DNA from: Candidatus Proelusimicrobium volucris | GTDB lineage: Bacteria; Elusimicrobiota; Elusimicrobia; Elusimicrobiales; Elusimicrobiaceae | Direction of reading: 5' to 3' | Length of the DNA: 64,000 nt | Assembly (NCBI GenBank): GCA_944324665.1 | Contig: CALUXD010000002.1 | Coordinates: 62,001-126,000, forward strand | Shown: positions 41,671 through 57,529 of the stretch, piece after piece | How positions within the stretch are numbered: the first letter of the stretch is position 1 | Layout: the number at the start of each line of letters is the position of its first letter | Translations under genes and position numbers: made by a program | Notes under the pieces: generated by a model | What the model was told of the DNA's origin: nothing | What the model saw: only the letters and a program-made list of their open reading frames with translations | The model's database searches: none

Positions 41671-42378
41671 TTAAATATGCAAGAGTTTCATTATTTTTCC
41701 GGTAGCGGAATCAAACAGGATAATCCGTTTAAACGTTGAATTTTTTATAGTAGGAAGTTTAGTAGTATCATAAGCGAAATTTTCTTGGAAAGAATTTATT
41801 TCTATGATAAGCCAGTATTCGTCACATTTTGAAAATGAAAGGGAACATTTTTCTTTTCTAGTTATAGCTTCTTTCAAATTTTCTTCTATGGGAACATAGT
41901 TGGCTTGTCCAAAGTAACCAACACAAGTATGTCCTGTGCGTTTTTGTAAAATAATTTCTGAGAAAGGGTTAGATGGTGGCAATGGTATCTTTTTTAGTTG
42001 ATTTATATGAAGGAATTTTAAATTCCCTTTAACTAAATTTATAATTTCATCTTCAATATATTCATAAGAATTATTCCTTTTATTTAAATATGGGGGAGTA
42101 TAAATCGGTTGAAAAGGAGTGTTGAGTATAACTATAAAATCTTTCTCTTCTTGTGAGAGTTGTTTTCTGATGTTTTGCGTAATTTTGTTCATATCAGCAC
42201 TAAAACTGATAGAATGCTTTCCCTTTTTGCCACATTTTGTATGTTCTATACCTATAGTCTTATTGTTAATAAAAGTTATAAAATCAGGACTTTCTTGAGA
42301 TTCTAACTCACATTTAATTTTGTAGTGTTTTAATACTTTTATAACAATTTGTTTCTCTATATCTTTTTGTCTGTACAT
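41671..42378 (-). CDS. Unknown AT-rich gene, possible PD-(D/E)xK-like nuclease
   Basis: The 235-residue protein (from the ATG at 42378; a TTG ten codons upstream is also open) has no signal peptide. Residues 25-50 (CELESQESPDFITFINNKTI, then GIEHTK) fit the strand-turn-strand layout of a PD-(D/E)xK nuclease, where a Pro-Asp is followed after a short loop by Glu-x-Thr/Lys. The canonical Glu-x-Lys is here Glu-His-Thr-Lys, so activity is uncertain. Composition is much more AT-rich than the housekeeping genes to the left, a sign of transfer. It is a lone minus-strand gene at the edge of the accessory region. Confidence 0.6.
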   Translation of the reverse strand: MYRQKDIEKQIVIKVLKHYKIKCELESQESPDFITFINNKTIGIEHTKCGKKGKHSISFSADMNKITQNIRKQLSQEEKDFIVILNTPFQPIYTPPYLNKRNNSYEYIEDEIINLVKGNLKFLHINQLKKIPLPPSNPFSEIILQKRTGHTCVGYFGQANYVPIEENLKEAITRKEKCSLSFSKCDEYWLIIEINSFQENFAYDTTKLPTIKNSTFKRIILFDSATGKIMKLLHI

Positions 42379-42550
42379 ATTATTTACTTGTGCGTCTTTA
42401 ATCTTCAAACAGTGATTAGAAAACGAAAGTCAAATGAGTATATGAGATTAAAAGAACAAGGGAATCAGCCTAAGAAAAAACTTCTATAAATGTTTGTTAA
42501 TGAGTTTAGCCTGTATATTGCAAGGAAGGTTTTAGATATCTTAAAAAAAG

Positions 42551-42596
42551 TGCGCCCAACAGGAATCGAACTTGTATCCCCAGCTCCGCAGGCTGA
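42551..42596 (-). other. 3' half of a tRNA-Arg gene, probable attachment-site copy
   Basis: On the minus strand this reads as an anticodon arm (5-bp stem, loop CTGCGGA with GCG at the anticodon position), a 4-base variable region, a T-arm with loop TTCGATT and one stem mismatch, an acceptor half TGGGCGC and a discriminator A. CTT follows instead of CCA, then a T-run. The 5' acceptor strand (GCGCCCA expected) and D-arm are missing. Such 3' halves are left when a tyrosine recombinase inserts an element into a tRNA gene. Confidence 0.6.
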
Positions 42597-42722: not shown

Positions 42723-43799
42723 TTATTCAAAGGCACTTTTTACCTGTTCAATAATTTGCACGGCGTGCTTACGGTCTAAACCCGTTTTTTGAGCCAGTTC
42801 CAGCATATCTGCTTCGGTCGGCAGCCCCTGGCCCAGTACCGTGGTGGTATGCTGGCCGTTAAACCCTTCAGACGGCACTAAATCGTACGCCGGAGACACT
42901 TGCCAACGGTTATTTTCATATACAAATGAGAAATTTTTGGCGTGGTCGTCTTTATTCTGGCCAATTACATTAAATGCCATCAGGCGGAACATCTTTTCCG
43001 CTTCCTGCACATCTCGTGTTAAAAACAGGGTCGTTTCAATCAAGGTTTTATAGTCCAGTGACGGAATGCGGAAATCCGCCTGGAGCAGGCCGGCCGCTGT
43101 ATGCATATGGATACGCTTGTTTCCCTGCCTGTCAAAGCGTTTTACCCCAAAATACTTGCCGTCAAATAAGCGTGTTTCTGGCATAATAAGCCCCGCTTTA
43201 CGAGCCAGTTGCGAGTATTTGTATTCTATTTCGCCTATATTGGCCGGATCTTGGGTATTACGGAATTTAATCAGCCATTCTTCCCCGTCAATAGTAAGCA
43301 AAACCTTGGGCCGGGCCCCGCCGGAACTGCCACCCTTGGCTGCAAGTAAAGATAGGTCTTTAGTGGGTTCATCGTGCAATACTTTTTGGGTTTCCTGCTC
43401 CAGGTAAGCAAGCGTTTTATCTTGGTCGTCTTGCCCGATGGGGTGCGTGGGTTGGTAGGTAAGAGCTCCCATTGTTTTAGGTCCCACGATACAAAGCCAA
43501 TCTAAGGGGGATAAAGTGGCCGGATGAACCCCCTGCTGGCGCATGAGCCTGTCTATTAGCAGGCGTCCCCAGCCGTCCGGTAAACTGTCATTAAACACCC
43601 CAAATAAACCGTCAAAAGGGTCCCATTTGCTGGTAAAAACACCCGGCTTGAGCGGAAGTATCAGGGGAGAAATAGAAAATCCTTCTTCCAGCCACTGGGC
43701 ACTATATTCAAAAGCGCATAAGTTATCCCGGCGCAAGGCTAATGTGCCGACTAATTGCTCATTATAAAATACCTGTAAAGATTGAACGGGTTTAATCAT
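42723..43799 (-). CDS. hipA: HipA-like serine/threonine kinase toxin
   Basis: HipA kinases phosphorylate glutamyl-tRNA synthetase or similar targets and stop growth, with HipB as antitoxin and repressor. From the ATG at 43799 (AAAGGGGG upstream) the protein has 358 residues. It shows an N-terminal HipA domain, the serine-bearing loop GGSSGGARPK (156-165), the catalytic NKDDHAKN (282-289) and the metal-binding YDLVPS (305-310). All active-site elements are intact. It is shorter than E. coli HipA (440), lacking part of the C-terminal region, as in many mobile HipA proteins. The start overlaps the hipB stop by 8 bases. Confidence 0.9.
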   Translation of the reverse strand: MIKPVQSLQVFYNEQLVGTLALRRDNLCAFEYSAQWLEEGFSISPLILPLKPGVFTSKWDPFDGLFGVFNDSLPDGWGRLLIDRLMRQQGVHPATLSPLDWLCIVGPKTMGALTYQPTHPIGQDDQDKTLAYLEQETQKVLHDEPTKDLSLLAAKGGSSGGARPKVLLTIDGEEWLIKFRNTQDPANIGEIEYKYSQLARKAGLIMPETRLFDGKYFGVKRFDRQGNKRIHMHTAAGLLQADFRIPSLDYKTLIETTLFLTRDVQEAEKMFRLMAFNVIGQNKDDHAKNFSFVYENNRWQVSPAYDLVPSEGFNGQHTTTVLGQGLPTEADMLELAQKTGLDRKHAVQIIEQVKSAFE

Positions 43800-44139
43800 T
43801 TTTGCGCCCCCTTTGGCGGGTTTTGTGTTGTTGGCTGTCAATTACTTCGTCAATGTGTTGATAATTAACCACGCTAAACAACTGCTTAAATTCAGCCGTA
43901 GCATTCAGCGCTACTGCCAGTTTCAAAAGTGATTTAAGGGATATTTCCGCTTGGTTTTCAAAGCGTTGTAAAGAACCCAAACTGACCCCGGAGCGCTTGG
44001 CAAGAGCCTGTTGCGTAAGGTTTAGTTCCAGCCGTCTGGCCCGTACGCGCTTAGCAATCCCTTCTGCTAAGGCCTGAGGATTAAAATCTTCTATTAAATT
44101 AGAAACTAATATATTATTTGTTAAATTGTTATTAGCCAT
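43792..44139 (-). CDS. hipB: HipB-like XRE antitoxin and repressor
   Basis: The 115-residue protein carries a Cro/CI-type helix-turn-helix at about residues 40-65 (LTQQALAKRSGVSLGSLQRF). An Asn-rich N-terminal extension of about 25 residues precedes it, and a basic C-terminal tail follows. It is upstream of and overlaps hipA, the standard antitoxin-toxin order. It should repress its own promoter by binding the AT-rich palindrome just upstream (44147-44158) and neutralise HipA by binding. Confidence 0.9.
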   Translation of the reverse strand: MANNNLTNNILVSNLIEDFNPQALAEGIAKRVRARRLELNLTQQALAKRSGVSLGSLQRFENQAEISLKSLLKLAVALNATAEFKQLFSVVNYQHIDEVIDSQQHKTRQRGRKND

Positions 44140-44204: not shown

Positions 44205-44465
44205 TTAATATCTCTTTTTATTTTTTCCTATCAATTTAACAATACCTAGCCCAAGACCAACACCAATAGCCCCAGTAATTATAGGAATTGCAGACATAAC
44301 TCCTACTCCAAACGCCATTCCACCACCTACTACAGAACCTGCTGTGGCTAAAGCAGATGAAGTTGCTGCAGCTGTTCCACTGGACATAGAAATAACTCCT
44401 GCTATTCCACTAGCAACCCCGATGCCTCCGCCTGTAATAGCACCTATTTTATTCTTTTTTTTCAT
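44205..44465 (-). CDS. Small Gly-rich hydrophobic protein, bacteriocin-like or membrane-active
   Basis: The 86-residue product has a basic start (MKKKNKIG), then about 70 residues of Gly, Ala, Ser, Ile and Val with repeated GxxxG spacing (ITGGGIGVASGIAGVISMSS, VVGGGMAFGVGVMSAIPIIT), and a basic end (GKNKKRY). Such glycine-zipper helices are seen in membrane-active peptides, circular bacteriocins and small toxins. No leader peptidase site or immunity gene is obvious. AAGGAGAT eight bases before the ATG is a strong ribosome site, so it is probably expressed. It lies alone between hipB and the nuclease-like gene. Confidence 0.7.
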   Translation of the reverse strand: MKKKNKIGAITGGGIGVASGIAGVISMSSGTAAATSSALATAGSVVGGGMAFGVGVMSAIPIITGAIGVGLGLGIVKLIGKNKKRY

Positions 44466-44649: not shown

Positions 44650-46077
44650 TTATCGCAATTTACTAGCTGTTGGATAAATTGTGCCATCAATAATATACAA
44701 GTCAGGGCAAAGCAATCCCTGCCCTAACATTTCCTGTCTCTTTTTTTCTAGGCGTTTAATATTTCTTCCAGTCTTTGATACTTTTACAACCACATAAAAA
44801 CAATTTATTGTTTCTTCACATTCCGCATACTTTAAGAGTTGTTTAGCATACCCTTCTGGTAAAGCTGTGTTTTTGTCCAATTTTAATTCAACAAGGAATT
44901 TTTGATTAAAACCATTGCTCATTTTAAAGTCGACAGCACCACTTCCTTGATTCACCTCTGGGTTTAGATCTAAATTATTAGCTTTACAGTATGATTGTGC
45001 TGTTATAAAAAAAAGTTTCTGTATAAAATCTTCGTGTTGAGGCTTACCTTCTGATGTGTATAGATATTTATTAACTCCGTGATTCTCTATGTTGCGACGA
45101 AATTGAAAGATAATTTCAGATATTATATGTTTAATCTCATCATCAGTAGGTACAGACGGAAGCGTTAATTTTATCGGATATTGTTGAGAGAATTTCCTTC
45201 CAATATCTAACCACTTAGATTTCATCAATGGATCAGAACTAAAATCATATGGAGATGGAATATAATTTTTATATTCCATTAATAATGTTGTAATAAATTC
45301 TTTATTGCTCAATAAAATATTTTTAATATTTTTCTTAGATATATTCTTGAGGCTAGTACCCAAAATTCTATTCACCCTATTTCTAAGTAAGGAATTGTTA
45401 TCTATCATATCCCATATCGACTTATCAAAGGCAGGAAGAGGTCTCAAGAAAGATTTTGGAATTAAAAGAATGGGATTTGTAGGTGATAATGGATTTTGTG
45501 GAAGAAGATATTTTTCCCCACTATATGAGGTGAAAGAAAGCGTTTTAGAAAGAGCAAGGTTTTTTGTTACTCTCTGACTAAAAGCAAGAAGATCCTCATA
45601 AATAATATTAATAGACATGTCACTAATTCTATCCGCTCCAAAACCTTCTTCCAATATGCCCAAAATAGCAAAAATATCCGGATTATCAATTCCTAATTCC
45701 CAAACTTTTTCTGCAGACATAAGTAACTGTTCTGCTAGGCGTTTTCCAATGCCTTTTCCAGGAACGTGGTTTTGACTATATCCTAAAAAAGCCTCTTTTG
45801 GTTCTGGAAAAGTGCATTGTTTGACAGCAGTTTTCCACAGTTTTGAATGATAATCTTTTTGAGAAAGTTTTAATAATGTAAAAACTCTTTCATAATGTTG
45901 GGTAATTTTTTTGTATGCTCCCAAAAATTCTTTGATCTTTGTTCTTTTTAATAATGTTGGATCCAAGTAAAAACCAGAATCTATCCCAATAATTGCATTA
46001 AAAGCCCCTTCTCTGTTAAATTGAGTAGAAGAAACACCGAAATATTCAGATAATTTTAAAATCTCTCTATTTGGCAT
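44650..46077 (-). CDS. Putative nuclease with C-terminal PD-(D/E)xK-like core, unknown family
   Basis: The 475-residue protein has no signal or membrane segments. The last 110 residues hold a nuclease-like core: an acidic residue in NQGSGAVDFKMSNG (Asp near residue 395), then KFLVELKLDKN (Glu-x-Lys) and a helix GYAKQLLKYAECE. That order of D, ExK and Q/Y helix is typical of the PD-(D/E)xK superfamily. The N-terminal 340 residues are helical and not recognised. One GKGIGKRLAEQL segment resembles a nucleic-acid-contacting loop. The gene stands alone in the island near hipBA, suggesting a stand-alone defence or type IV-like restriction enzyme. This is inference. Confidence 0.65.
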   Translation of the reverse strand: MPNREILKLSEYFGVSSTQFNREGAFNAIIGIDSGFYLDPTLLKRTKIKEFLGAYKKITQHYERVFTLLKLSQKDYHSKLWKTAVKQCTFPEPKEAFLGYSQNHVPGKGIGKRLAEQLLMSAEKVWELGIDNPDIFAILGILEEGFGADRISDMSINIIYEDLLAFSQRVTKNLALSKTLSFTSYSGEKYLLPQNPLSPTNPILLIPKSFLRPLPAFDKSIWDMIDNNSLLRNRVNRILGTSLKNISKKNIKNILLSNKEFITTLLMEYKNYIPSPYDFSSDPLMKSKWLDIGRKFSQQYPIKLTLPSVPTDDEIKHIISEIIFQFRRNIENHGVNKYLYTSEGKPQHEDFIQKLFFITAQSYCKANNLDLNPEVNQGSGAVDFKMSNGFNQKFLVELKLDKNTALPEGYAKQLLKYAECEETINCFYVVVKVSKTGRNIKRLEKKRQEMLGQGLLCPDLYIIDGTIYPTASKLR

Positions 46078-46368: not shown

Positions 46369-47364
46369 TTATGCAAATTGTGGCAGTAAATCATTCACAA
46401 TTTCTATGGATTTACGCAAATAAGTAGGGCTTAAATGCGCGTAGCGTTGGGTTAATTTTAAGTCGGAATGGCCCAAAATACGCTGTAAATCGGTAATAGA
46501 GCCGCCTTTCATCATAAAATGACTGGCAAAAGTGTGGCGCAGGTCGTGAAAGCGGATGTTTTGTATGCCCAGTTTTTTAAGCGTATGACGAAAGTCGTAC
46601 TCCACCATTTTTTCCGTCAGCGGGAATACTTTACCTGTTTTAAGCGGGTGCATACTCAGTAATACCTGACGTAAAGACGGCATAATGGGCACTTCCCGCT
46701 TATTGCCGGATTTGGAAATATAAATATGGATAATGTTATTCGTCCAATCAATGTCTTTCCAATCCAGGCGTAGAATTTCGCCCCGGCGCATACCCGTACA
46801 GATAGCAAAAGCTACCAAGTTACGGGAACGCTCTGGGATATGCAACAAAACTTCTTTAATCTCCTCTTGCGACAGGTAATTGGTGCGGGCAGGGTTTTCT
46901 TTTTGCTTTCCTACCCCTATACATGGATTTTCACCTTTATACAGTTTAAGTAAGATGACTTTATTAATAATAGCCCGCAGGACGCTAAAGTGCCTGTTAG
47001 CGGTGGACGGACTGGTTTCAGCCAGGCGTTGGTTATAAAATTCCTGTACATCGGCCGTAGTAATACTGGCTAGGGGCTTATTCCCAAAGTACTTTTTGAG
47101 AAATTCTATCGTATATTTCATCTTAAAAGCACTTTTTTTCTTACTCAGGTGAATGGCATAGTATTTATCCGCCGCTTCCCAAAAGGTAAGTTGTTGTTTC
47201 TTCCGGTCCGGGAAGAACTTCCTTTCGGCTATCTCGGACTTACGCTTGGCTAAGGTCTCTTTAGCCAGTGTTTTACTACCATAAATAGTTTCCCGGTGTC
47301 TCTTCTGGTATTCATCACGGTAGTCAATTGTAAAACTTTTATTTAAATTATCTTTTATTCCCAT
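46369..47364 (-). CDS. Tyrosine recombinase (phage-type integrase)
   Basis: The 331-residue protein has the layout of element integrases: a small N-terminal DNA-binding part (residues 10-55), a core-binding SAM-like domain (60-145) and the catalytic domain. The active site is complete: Arg193 in TGMRRGEI, a lysine in the KSGNKREVP turn, His273 and Arg276 in HDLRH, His299 in GHSDLK and the nucleophile Tyr308. It would integrate and excise the island at the tRNA-Arg site. The excisionase-like and replication genes lie upstream in the same direction. Confidence 0.93.
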   Translation of the reverse strand: MGIKDNLNKSFTIDYRDEYQKRHRETIYGSKTLAKETLAKRKSEIAERKFFPDRKKQQLTFWEAADKYYAIHLSKKKSAFKMKYTIEFLKKYFGNKPLASITTADVQEFYNQRLAETSPSTANRHFSVLRAIINKVILLKLYKGENPCIGVGKQKENPARTNYLSQEEIKEVLLHIPERSRNLVAFAICTGMRRGEILRLDWKDIDWTNNIIHIYISKSGNKREVPIMPSLRQVLLSMHPLKTGKVFPLTEKMVEYDFRHTLKKLGIQNIRFHDLRHTFASHFMMKGGSITDLQRILGHSDLKLTQRYAHLSPTYLRKSIEIVNDLLPQFA

Positions 47365-47555: not shown

Positions 47556-47777
47556 TTACGCCCGAATCTTGAAGATGGTACTTAAATCATCGTTACTACT
47601 TTTTGCTTCTTCCAACGACTTATCTACTTCCACCAGATCAAACCTTACCCCTCTTTTACCAAGTTTAATAATCCATTGGGGTGGAATTTTACCTTGGCTT
47701 TTGTAAGTATAGATACGTCCTTCCGTTGTCCCTAAATACTGGGCCAATTCTTTAGCATTTACTAAACGCGGTGTCAT
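47556..47777 (-). CDS. Excisionase-like small helix-turn-helix protein
   Basis: The 73-residue product is a compact winged helix of the AlpA/HTH_17 (MerR-like) type: LVNAKELAQYLGTTEGRIYT, then QWIIKLGKRGVRFDLVEVDK. Proteins of this kind act as excisionases or as activators of the integrase gene. The ATG at 47777 follows a perfect AGGAGGA and lies inside the 3' end of the replication-protein gene, so the two are translationally coupled. Position directly before the integrase supports the excisionase role. Confidence 0.82.
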   Translation of the reverse strand: MTPRLVNAKELAQYLGTTEGRIYTYKSQGKIPPQWIIKLGKRGVRFDLVEVDKSLEEAKSSNDDLSTIFKIRA

Positions 47778-48900
47778 CAAATCCTCCTGCCTGCAGGCCC
47801 ATATTTACTGTAGTATTACCCACACATTTAGGGGTTAATTTCCAGTTGGTTTCATATGAGAGTTTTTGATAATCTTCCCACTGAATAGGACTCATTTGCA
47901 ATACTGAAGATAGCAAAATTTCTTTGAATATCTTCTCCGTTTCAGAAGTAGATACATATCCCTCTTGCAACTCTTTCCAATAACGTAAGGCCGTCTTAGC
48001 ATCACTGTGTTTTTTTAACCAAGTGAAAGTAAGATCTGATCCCAGGTTCTGTAACATCAAAAGAAGCCAGCAACGCAAGGATACAGACTGTAAGCCGTGA
48101 ATCCCGTGCTTTTGACAAAATATTTCTCTCTCTTTTAGAAGCGTATTAAAATCAGATTCTACCAGTACAATGCCATCTAATATCTGAGAAAGCCTATTCG
48201 TCAATATAGTTCTGGCAATTTCAGGGTTAAAAGCATTAGCCAAGGTGTTTTCAAAGGCCAAGTGTTGGGTTCTAAATTCTCGTTCAATTTCAGCACTTTT
48301 TTTAATTTGATACTCAACATTGACCACAGAAAAAGAACCATCTTCCAAGATATTCCGTAAATCCAAGGGCAGATATTCTTGTTTTAATCCTTCTTGCCGT
48401 TTATCGTACAAGATTAACTTGCGGTGTTTAAGCATATTCACACAACAAAATCCATCTTCCGGGTAATAAGTCACGGCTTTATTAAACCGACTTATCTTTT
48501 TACTGCTCTCCATTAAGTGTTGGTAGAAGTCAGACCCCAGGGGAAGTAGTGCAATCTTATTCACATCCATTCTAAATAGCCTATGTTGCATCAATACTTC
48601 TGGTTCCACAAATACACCCGCATAAGCCAGTTGTTCTACACTTTTGTACACAAAAGTCTCTAAGTCCTTTGGACCGACTTCATACAAATTATGTCCAAAA
48701 ATGACTTTTGACGGGCAAGATTCCCAATAAATCCCATAGAAATCCCTACGTATAGTAGGAAAATATCCGGCTTCAAGGTGTTTATATCCTGATCCGTCCC
48801 TATGTGGGGCTAATAGGTATCTATGCCTACTATCAGCCCTATCGGGAGATATAACTTTAACCTCTCCCGGTAAAAGATAACAAGCCACTTTATCCAGCAT
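47752..48900 (-). CDS. Replication initiation protein, phage X / gene II-like
   Basis: From the ATG at 48900 (AAGGAG upstream) the protein has 382 residues. The middle carries the pattern of phage/plasmid replication proteins of the gene II/X family: FRMDVNKIALLPLG, KLILYDKRQEG and a following VVNVEYQIKKSAEIEREF strand-helix, in which Asp, Tyr and Glu sit at catalytic positions. These proteins nick single-stranded DNA to start rolling-circle replication. Here it would let the excised element replicate. A 71-residue gene overlaps its start. Family assignment is by pattern and needs a profile search. Confidence 0.62.
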   Translation of the reverse strand: MLDKVACYLLPGEVKVISPDRADSRHRYLLAPHRDGSGYKHLEAGYFPTIRRDFYGIYWESCPSKVIFGHNLYEVGPKDLETFVYKSVEQLAYAGVFVEPEVLMQHRLFRMDVNKIALLPLGSDFYQHLMESSKKISRFNKAVTYYPEDGFCCVNMLKHRKLILYDKRQEGLKQEYLPLDLRNILEDGSFSVVNVEYQIKKSAEIEREFRTQHLAFENTLANAFNPEIARTILTNRLSQILDGIVLVESDFNTLLKEREIFCQKHGIHGLQSVSLRCWLLLMLQNLGSDLTFTWLKKHSDAKTALRYWKELQEGYVSTSETEKIFKEILLSSVLQMSPIQWEDYQKLSYETNWKLTPKCVGNTTVNMGLQAGGFDDTAFSKC

Positions 48901-49105
48901 AATTATTACTCCTTTTATGTGCCATACGAGCCAGCATGGGATAAACAATATATCCCAGCCAACCCCAATATTTACTATTGGCGGTCAAGCCCATTAAATG
49001 GGCTACCCGAATGCGATTGCAAGCGGGGAAAATGAATTTTTTGTTATATGGTTCTATTCCCAGGGAAAGAGTCCCATCAATACAACTTTTTTTGAATATT
49101 TCCAT
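48890..49105 (-). CDS. Small unknown protein upstream of the replication gene
   Basis: The 71-residue product (ATG at 49105, AAGGAGAAAT upstream) is basic with a tryptophan-rich middle (MGLTANSKYWGWLGYIVYPM) and no recognised motif. Its stop overlaps the replication-protein start by 11 bases. Phage X-type modules often have a small gene in this place, for example a single-strand-DNA-binding protein, but no such fold is evident here. Confidence 0.65.
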   Translation of the reverse strand: MEIFKKSCIDGTLSLGIEPYNKKFIFPACNRIRVAHLMGLTANSKYWGWLGYIVYPMLARMAHKRSNNYAG

Positions 49106-55738: not shown

Positions 55739-57529
55739 CTACGGGAGTTGCTTTAGCCCTAATTCCTTTAAGAATTCATTATGTTTTGTTTTGGCTTTAT
55801 TGATATCTTTGTCAATTTTTTCAAGTTCTTGCCATACTTCTTGAATATCAATAATTTCTTCTTCCGGGGCAGTGCTCACATAGCGCGAAATATTTAAGTT
55901 ATACCCGTTTTCCTCTATTTCTTTAACAGAAACCCGGCGGGAAAATTTTTTATCGTCCTCTTTACGGTATTGATAAGCATCTACAATCTTGTCAATATGT
56001 TCAGGTAAAAGGCTATTTTGGCGCTTGCCCTTTTCAAAGTATTCACTGGCATTAATAATTAATACATCGTCATATTTTTTACACTTTTTAAGCACCACAA
56101 TACACACCGGAATACCAGTGGAGAAAAATAAATTTTCCGGCAGGCCAATAATAGCGTCTATGTTATTGTCTTTGATAAGTTTTGTTCTAATCCTTTCTTC
56201 GCCTCCCCCACGGAATAATACACCATGGGGCAAAATAATAGCCATGGTACCATCATCACTTAAAAAATGAAATCCATGCAATAAAAATGCAAAATCCGCG
56301 GCAGATTTAGGAGCAAGACCATAGTTTTTAAATCTAAAATCTTCCGCCATATCTTCTTTCGGTTCCCAGCGGTAACTAAAAGGAGGGTTTGCCACCACTG
56401 CCTCAAACTGCATCTTTTTAGCGGGGTTCATTTCGTTTAGCAAACTCCAATCATTTAGCAAAGAATCCCCATGATAAATTTGGAATTCAGAATCTTTTAC
56501 CCCATGAAGCAACATATTCATACGGGCCAAGTTGTAAGTGGTGATATTTTTCTCCTGCCCGTATATTTGCCCAATAGCATTGGGCCCAAATTGCTTGCGT
56601 ACATTGATTAACAACGAGCCGGACCCGCAAGCAAAGTCCAATACATTTCGTAAATGACTCTTTTTACCTGTGCTAGGGTCTTGGCTATCTAGCGCAACAA
56701 TACGGGAAAGGATAGTGGATACCTGTTGCGGGGTATAAAATTCTCCCGCTTTTTTGCCAGATCCTGCCGCAAACTTGCTGATTAAATACTCATACGCATC
56801 CCCTAAAATGTCCGTATCATTGGGAAAGCTGGACAAGCCTTCTGCAATTTCTGTTATGATAGAACACAACAGGGCATTACGGGCGCTATAATTTTTACCA
56901 AGTTTGTCTGAATCCAAATTAATTTCCGAAAACAACCCCCGGAAACTGCTTTCAAAAGATTCATTTTCAATATATTTAAATCCGCTTTGTAAGGTTTTAA
57001 GCAATTGTTCATTCTGGGTGCGGGCTAGTTCGTAAATATTACTCCATAAATAAGCGGGTTTTATTACATAGTGGATTTTACGGCGCATTTGCTTTTCCAG
57101 CGTTTCCACTTGATCCAAATTATGGATATACCACACCGCCAACGCAATTACATTGCGGCTATAGAGCATTTTATTGTTATTTTCTATAAAAATACTTCTG
57201 GCCTTGGTGAGGGCTTCGTCTGTGGCTTCATTGTCATTTAAGCCCAATTTAGCGGGGGAAAGGGTCTTGCTGTAGGTTTCAATACGCTCCTTTAAGCCCG
57301 TAATATAGGCATCTAACCCTTGGCTATTGGCCTGTATTTCCTGCTCACACTGGGCATAATCTGGCCCCAGTTCTTTTTTTACTGCATCTTCATAATTATC
57401 AGAAAGATACCGTAAAAAGAGGAAAGATAACATATAGTCTCTAAAATCATCTGCGCTCATTGCCCCGCGTAATTTATCGGCTATGGCCCATAAAGTGGCA
57501 CCTAATTGTTTTTGTTGATTTTCGGTCAT
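55739..57529 (-). CDS. hsdM: Type I restriction-modification methyltransferase subunit
   Basis: HsdM methylates adenine at sites chosen by HsdS. The 596-residue protein has the N-terminal helical HsdM_N domain (residues 8-170, with LGATLWAIADKLRGAMSADD), SAM motif I DFACGSGSLL (298-307) and the catalytic NPPF (381-384) of N6-adenine enzymes. The GEFYTPQQV segment (262-270) is typical for type I. A C-terminal coiled coil for HsdS contact ends the chain. Its start overlaps prrC by four bases (ATGA). Length exceeds the common 480-530 because of an insert at residues 60-230. Confidence 0.95.
   Translation of the reverse strand: MTENQQKQLGATLWAIADKLRGAMSADDFRDYMLSFLFLRYLSDNYEDAVKKELGPDYAQCEQEIQANSQGLDAYITGLKERIETYSKTLSPAKLGLNDNEATDEALTKARSIFIENNNKMLYSRNVIALAVWYIHNLDQVETLEKQMRRKIHYVIKPAYLWSNIYELARTQNEQLLKTLQSGFKYIENESFESSFRGLFSEINLDSDKLGKNYSARNALLCSIITEIAEGLSSFPNDTDILGDAYEYLISKFAAGSGKKAGEFYTPQQVSTILSRIVALDSQDPSTGKKSHLRNVLDFACGSGSLLINVRKQFGPNAIGQIYGQEKNITTYNLARMNMLLHGVKDSEFQIYHGDSLLNDWSLLNEMNPAKKMQFEAVVANPPFSYRWEPKEDMAEDFRFKNYGLAPKSAADFAFLLHGFHFLSDDGTMAIILPHGVLFRGGGEERIRTKLIKDNNIDAIIGLPENLFFSTGIPVCIVVLKKCKKYDDVLIINASEYFEKGKRQNSLLPEHIDKIVDAYQYRKEDDKKFSRRVSVKEIEENGYNLNISRYVSTAPEEEIIDIQEVWQELEKIDKDINKAKTKHNEFLKELGLKQLP

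Follow-up and report, generated by a model that had tools for sequence, protein, structure and literature searches.

The gene and the element that carries it

The window, i.e., the whole stretch of 64,000 nucleotides analysed here, encodes on its minus strand a 475-residue protein, designated P0001 (Table 1). The limits of this gene are exactly those of the stand-alone reading frame proposed by an earlier sequence-only reading, and the plus strand across the same interval contains many stops. Its G+C content is 31.6%, vs 42.3% for the window. That reading had suggested profile searches and structure prediction as checks. Regarding the former, no family match was obtained in Pfam or NCBIfam, but PHROG 30194, whose function is listed as unknown, matches residues 6-473 of the 475 with an E-value of 5e-85, and the candidate PDC-M36A from PADLOC-DB 2.0.0 matches the N-terminal part with an E-value of 1.4e-11. 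The label "unknown family" is thus not fully accurate, as the N-terminal domain is already a PADLOC candidate and the whole family corresponds to PHROG 30194, which, being the family itself, offers no contrast to P0001. Neither PDC-M36 nor PHROG 30194 is named in any text found by a literature search from which subscription journals were largely absent. Sequence searches of solved structures gave no credible row; in the best one (1.4e-4), 37 residues match a fimbrial subunit and no single stretch passes by itself.

Table 1. Features of the locus and of the mobile element, in window positions
Feature	Position	Strand	Evidence
Left end of element: 46-bp copy of tRNA-Arg(gcg) 3' end	42550-42595	minus	Repeat search
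HipA-like toxin, cargo neighbour	42723-43841	minus	PF07804 8.5e-48, PF13657 1.3e-21
HipB-like HTH antitoxin, cargo neighbour	43792-44139	minus	Weak PADLOC HTH-type matches; position before hipA
Glycine/alanine-rich hydrophobic protein (86 aa) between hipB and nuclease gene	44205-44465	minus	No Pfam match
Gene of the 475-aa nuclease (whole protein P0001)	44650-46077	minus	ORF calling, ATG start; PHROG 30194; 75 related loci
C-terminal PD-(D/E)XK nuclease domain (predicted), residues 310-475	44653-45150	minus	Invariance 64/64; BstYI and OkrAI structure alignments
Middle helical region, residues 218-309	45151-45426	minus	Least conserved; low-confidence model stretch 217-228
N-terminal domain, residues 1-217	45427-46077	minus	PDC-M36A match 8-217; model; residue invariance
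Tyrosine integrase	46369-47364	minus	PF00589 1.1e-29
G2P/phage_CRI-type (filamentous-phage) replication protein	47752-48948	minus	PF05144 3e-8, above cut-off
Type I HsdM	55739-57529	minus	PF02384 2.9e-106 at contig 117856-118818 = window 55856-56818
Right end of element: identical direct repeat	64467-64512 (window-equivalent)		Inside intact tRNA-Arg just beyond the window

Direct repeats, each a copy of the 3' end of tRNA-Arg(gcg), delimit the integrated element of ~22 kb in which the gene lies and which reaches window-equivalent position 64539. A repeat search confined to the window missed the ends of this element because the right copy is located beyond it. In the nearest relative (L103), where the left flank is 90% identical at the DNA level, some 0.5 kb, including a complete tRNA-Arg, separates the two flanks, and the element is missing. 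The placement beside hipBA in a defence-rich element, as previously described, is borne out by the hipA and HTH genes, the integrase, the G2P-like replication protein and HsdM; the hsdR- and hsdS-like genes adjoining the latter were named from reading their translations. The 86-residue protein encoded between hipB and the nuclease gene is possibly a small membrane protein.

Some further observations can be made on the element and its surroundings. The replication protein of filamentous-phage type and a tyrosine integrase stand side by side, and type I restriction is encoded in the same element. In three relatives (L103, L105 and L106), the segment that bears the tRNA has the opposite orientation. 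Just outside the left repeat, a 245-residue ORF (41671-42408, minus strand, 28.3% G+C) has no Pfam or PADLOC match and displays a P-D-F ... G-I-E stretch that appears nuclease-like by eye.

The C-terminal nuclease domain

The sequence-only reading had recognized in the C-terminal core the order Asp, Glu-x-Lys and Gln-Tyr of PD-(D/E)XK nucleases, and these residues (D383, E397-x-K399, Q413 and Y417) turn out to be invariant in all 64 sequences of the alignment referred to as A7. E349, Q353, C364, D370, E374, G378, G380, F384, S387 and G389 are likewise invariant in these 64 sequences, and an S-A-S tail at residues 470-472 is conserved within the family. A7 corresponds to a 67-row alignment, A6, minus three plasmid rows, and it omits 12 of the 70 genome loci: L033 (long extension), L049 (near-copy), L066, L077, L078, L080 and L085 (split genes), L081 (partial) and L073, L076, L083 and L084 (truncated at or close to contig ends). 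In A6, whose members are 26-40% identical to the window protein, the conservation of D383, E397 and Q413 falls to at least 90%. One of the nine proteins in a separate alignment, L008 from a Legionella plasmid, retains the Lys but has neither the Asp nor the Glu.

In the AlphaFold model of the full protein (pLDDT 87.2, pTM 0.86), D383 directly precedes a strand formed by residues 384-387, E397 and K399 are borne by strand 393-400, and Q413 and Y417 by helix 406-420. Such an order of residues, strands and helix is the one expected of the PD-(D/E)XK superfamily. Structure alignment with VIA-align over residues ~310-465 places the restriction endonucleases BstYI (Z 9.7, 135 residues, 3.6 Å) and OkrAI (Z 8.7, 144 residues, 3.7 Å) first, followed by EcoRV (Z up to 7.4). 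The fold of BstYI and OkrAI is thus like that of the C-terminal domain, although identity is only 11-13%. A Foldseek search with the full model returned no row with an E-value below 1e-3, and for this reason the fold assignment is based on the motif together with VIA-align. The CRISPR ancillary nucleases Cdn1 and Can2 are among the top Foldseek rows, with weak E-values. Since both the D...(D/E)xK signature on the core hairpin and the alpha-beta core fold of the superfamily were found in the alignment and the model, the C-terminal domain (residues ~310-475) is predicted to be a restriction-endonuclease-like nuclease of the PD-(D/E)XK type.

The N-terminal domain and its combination with different nuclease domains

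The N-terminal half had been described as unrecognised, which holds with respect to Pfam, NCBIfam and solved structures but not to PADLOC, given the PDC-M36A match. Modelled alone from 64 sequences, residues 1-217 give a pLDDT of 91.0 and a pTM of 0.88, so that the domain is predicted to fold separately and with confidence. The best Foldseek row against the PDB has an E-value of 0.93 and the best VIA-align score against 452 chains is a Z of 3.5; no modified-base reader fold was recognized by either method. In the model, the domain therefore has no recognized solved relative, it being understood that a new fold does not follow from a missing match. Six residues, namely E92, G99, G107, D149, S152 and D153, are invariant in all 38 N-terminal domains compared, which belong to several subtypes, and this suggests a ligand, DNA or catalytic site. 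Being acidic residues, serine and glycines, they could belong to a site of ligand binding or catalysis and not to a DNA reader.

PDC-M36 is a candidate two-gene system made up of M36A and M36B. According to their description, PDC systems are guilt-by-embedding predictions, most of them untested (PMC10855318; PMC12988326). The PDC-M36A model matches the N-terminal domain in 62 of the 64 family members, and conversely a profile of the window-type N-terminal domain finds all eight proteins of other subtypes, seven with E-values of 2e-18 to 1e-31 and the weakest with 1.6e-4, while none of 168 reversed or shuffled control copies was listed at E-values up to 10. The five type C/D proteins are all found (2e-18 to 3e-26). 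A profile of the window-type C-terminal domain behaves differently: of the same eight proteins, it finds the two of type B alone and none of the five of types C and D. Type B (L002/L142, L137 and L010) comprises full-length relatives with a longer middle region, whereas type C (L143, L144, L141 and L138) bears a different nuclease-like tail with, by eye, an E-C-K motif; in the two of these scanned, L003 (the same gene as L143) and L138, the PDC-M36A match extends nearly from end to end. The N-terminal domain can hence be regarded as a module shared with proteins that have another C-terminal domain, and the window protein as something other than the two-gene PDC-M36 system. The occurrence of one domain on different tails looks like the domain swapping typical of a sensor-plus-effector architecture.

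With regard to PDC-M36 proper, P0001 has the N-terminal domain in common with M36A but differs in its C-terminal domain and occurs without M36B. A single-sequence phmmer search with M36B retrieved only L140 among the 4,801 ORFs of the fetched loci, and a PADLOC scan of eight neighbours in the window did not reveal it either. Membership was therefore rejected, as the match ends at residue 217, the C-terminal domain is of another lineage and M36B is lacking. That the family consists of reduced PDC-M36 systems, the small partner having been lost or lying elsewhere, would be consistent with the near-general PDC-M36A match, but the almost complete lack of M36B and the dissimilar C-terminal domain make this highly improbable.

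Two loci call for separate mention. The ORF at L140 (3435-4181, minus strand, 248 residues) shows a match to positions 1-121 of PDC-M36A followed by one to PDC-M36B, and may represent a fusion or a rearranged PDC-M36 locus. In L139 (103-1554, minus strand), a tail resembling that of type C has, by eye, apparently lost its nuclease motif. As the motif also appears lost in L008 (8001-9809, plus strand), the sequences suggest that the N-terminal domain can be retained without a functional nuclease.

Distribution and genomic neighbourhood

Relatives are encoded at 75 loci, so that the ORF is no mere product of chance; five of these loci come from the 77 pattern matches obtained in viral contigs and the other 70 from the 239 obtained in genome contigs. 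A tblastn search detected relatives in 21 plasmid records and none in 50,697 phage records, and a scan of viral contigs with one protein as query was fruitless. Carriers among genome and viral contigs belong to Pseudomonadota, Bacillota, Bacteroidota, Nitrospirota, Planctomycetota and candidate-phyla bacteria, and include two further bins, one of Nanoarchaeota and one of Methanofastidiosum. A tree of 64 rows places the window protein, on a long branch, with a Collierbacteria protein (support 99/92) and next with a Bacteroidota protein (98/97). Only 1 of 90 genomes from the taxonomic family of the host has the gene, and 5 of 340 genomes from its phylum have a relative. Such a sporadic presence among scattered taxa is the pattern of horizontally moving cargo. 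A housekeeping role, which the sequence-only reading had itself named as speaking against its proposal, is set aside on the same counts. In five of the 70 genome loci (L066, L077, L078, L080 and L085), the coding sequence is broken into two ORFs, from which it follows that it is sometimes inactivated.

The earlier view of a single-gene system agrees with the neighbourhoods, since no partner recurs among 85 loci or 140 adjacent genes. The Pfam and PADLOC scans of the adjacent genes considered those of at least 110 residues, left out L001-L006 and L010, and gave counts among the 25 commonest families. The only neighbour clusters found at at least four of the 85 loci are those of an integrase (12), a serine recombinase (11) and a DUF3427-type protein (5), and a conserved partner gene was rejected on this ground. 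Among the 140 immediate neighbours, no Pfam family occurs more than four times and no PADLOC family more than twice. Neighbours include Dsr1, DrmD, SduA, an AspBHI-like enzyme, SoFic, TIR and type I and II methylases. For one type B relative (L002 3045-4478, minus strand), the distance to a HerA-like ATPase (9.4e-77) is 66 bases, an arrangement that recalls nuclease-HerA pairs.

The nuclease could conceivably serve the mobile element itself, in replication, integration control or competition between elements, instead of phage defence. An integrase adjoins the gene here, integrases and serine recombinases are the two commonest neighbour clusters, and relatives occur on plasmids and viral contigs. 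Yet Resolvase and Phage_integrase account for only four each of the 140 immediate neighbours, the rest being varied cargo, and such a service function is considered improbable.

A search for the N-terminal domain covered 43 of the 70 genome loci, and methylases were searched for in 38 of these 43 genomes plus that of the window (G000); G375, G378, G380, G381 and G382, in which the gene is cut, broken or unmatched, were omitted. A methylase of four families (PF00145, PF02086, PF02384 and PF01555) is found within 3 kb of the gene in 2 of these 39 carriers and within 10 kb in 6, the remaining 33 having none at that distance, although contig ends may hide some. On these counts, a classical type II restriction-modification system was rejected. 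BstYI and OkrAI thus differ from P0001 in that no methylase partner recurs at loci of its family. At the level of complete genomes, 36 of the 39 carriers have at least one such methylase (PF00145 in 19, PF02086 in 13, PF02384 in 19 and PF01555 in 29) and three (G340, G341 and G359) have none.

These figures bear on an orphan type II restriction enzyme whose site would be protected by a host methylase encoded elsewhere. While the best structural alignments are to type II enzymes and most carriers do own a methylase somewhere, the scarcity of methylases within 10 kb, the three genomes with none of the four families and the difficulty for an unprotected cutter to spread singly across phyla, as in the tree, leave only a slim chance for this explanation. 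PF00145 comprises C5-methylases, and several PF02086 matches are strong, full-length and from gammaproteobacteria, these proteins being presumably of the Dam type. Because carriers often own methylases, a reader of any 5-methylcytosine or methylated GATC would harm them, and common methyl marks are improbable as a general trigger. Generic reading of 5mC or Gm6ATC is thus unlikely, which leaves as candidate triggers a less common modification of phage DNA, some other DNA feature or a signal of infection.

Relation to known defence enzymes and proposed mode of action

Shedu enzymes have a PD-(D/E)XK core combined with varied sensor domains. According to PMC12948488, SduA acts in defence as a single protein, a nuclease by which the genome of the phage is degraded, and P0001 is likewise a single predicted nuclease. 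Membership in Shedu was nonetheless rejected, as no SduA model, at E-values up to 10, and no PF14082 (SduA_C / DUF4263) match was obtained with P0001. Type IV enzymes such as McrA, PvuRts1I, the MspJI family and the wH-fusion nucleases resemble P0001 in having a specificity-type domain and a nuclease domain, usually with no methylase nearby, according to their descriptions (PMC11037411; PMC3874153; PMC7145662). P0001 differs in that no modified-base reader fold was recognized in its N-terminal domain. In PMC11037411, 87% of the wH-fusion nucleases are reported to have no methylase within three genes on either side, and the lack of a nearby methylase is used to propose a type IV action; here, none of the four families was found within 10 kb in 33 of the 39 carriers.

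From the alignments and models, P0001 is a real, uncharacterised, single-gene protein of mobile defence islands, predicted to be a PD-(D/E)XK nuclease. As for its action, an even chance is given to a methylase-free, type IV-like and sensor-gated DNA nuclease of the restriction type, directed against phages or other mobile elements. The N-terminal domain would be a sensor or specificity module that restrains the nuclease until a feature of the invading DNA is met, most likely a DNA modification or other mark missing from the host, and the C-terminal domain would then cut both strands of the invader DNA. Overall, the protein would act like a stand-alone, modification-dependent restriction enzyme other than a general reader of 5-methylcytosine or methylated GATC. 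By analogy, the interpretation leans to type IV because of the stand-alone occurrence without methylases. In its favor are the invariant catalytic-type residues, the restriction endonuclease fold, the separate N-terminal domain and its occurrence on different tails, the varied defence neighbours, the lack of a recurring partner, the scattered distribution and the mobility of the element; against it are the failure to recognize a modified-base reader fold, the invariant N-terminal residues that could form a ligand or catalytic site and the frequent possession of methylases by carriers.

The same nuclease might instead act in abortive infection, the N-terminal domain sensing a phage protein, a nucleotide or a DNA end, after which host and phage DNA would both be attacked. 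The six invariant residues would suit a ligand site, the reading of common methyl marks is unlikely, and Cdn1 and Can2 appear among the weak Foldseek rows, but no cyclase or signal-making partner recurs beside the gene in neighbour clusters, Pfam or PADLOC. This possibility is judged unlikely, though less so than service to the element or an orphan type II enzyme.

Returning to the sensor-gated restriction enzyme, a broader proposal can be put forward tentatively, with the chances somewhat against it: the N-terminal domain may be a new sensor fold of prokaryotic immunity, detecting a phage-specific DNA mark or ligand of a kind not imitated by common methylation of the host. It would be exchanged among nuclease effectors of at least two distinct kinds, the BstYI-like domain and that of PDC-M36A, and would underlie a whole class of candidate defences from candidate-phyla bacteria to archaea. 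The present analysis names residues for mutation as well as trigger classes made unlikely (general 5mC and Gm6ATC). If the proposal is true, a defence family that is widespread but known so far by prediction only would gain an anatomy, namely a conserved sensor domain of no recognized structure combined with an exchangeable nuclease.
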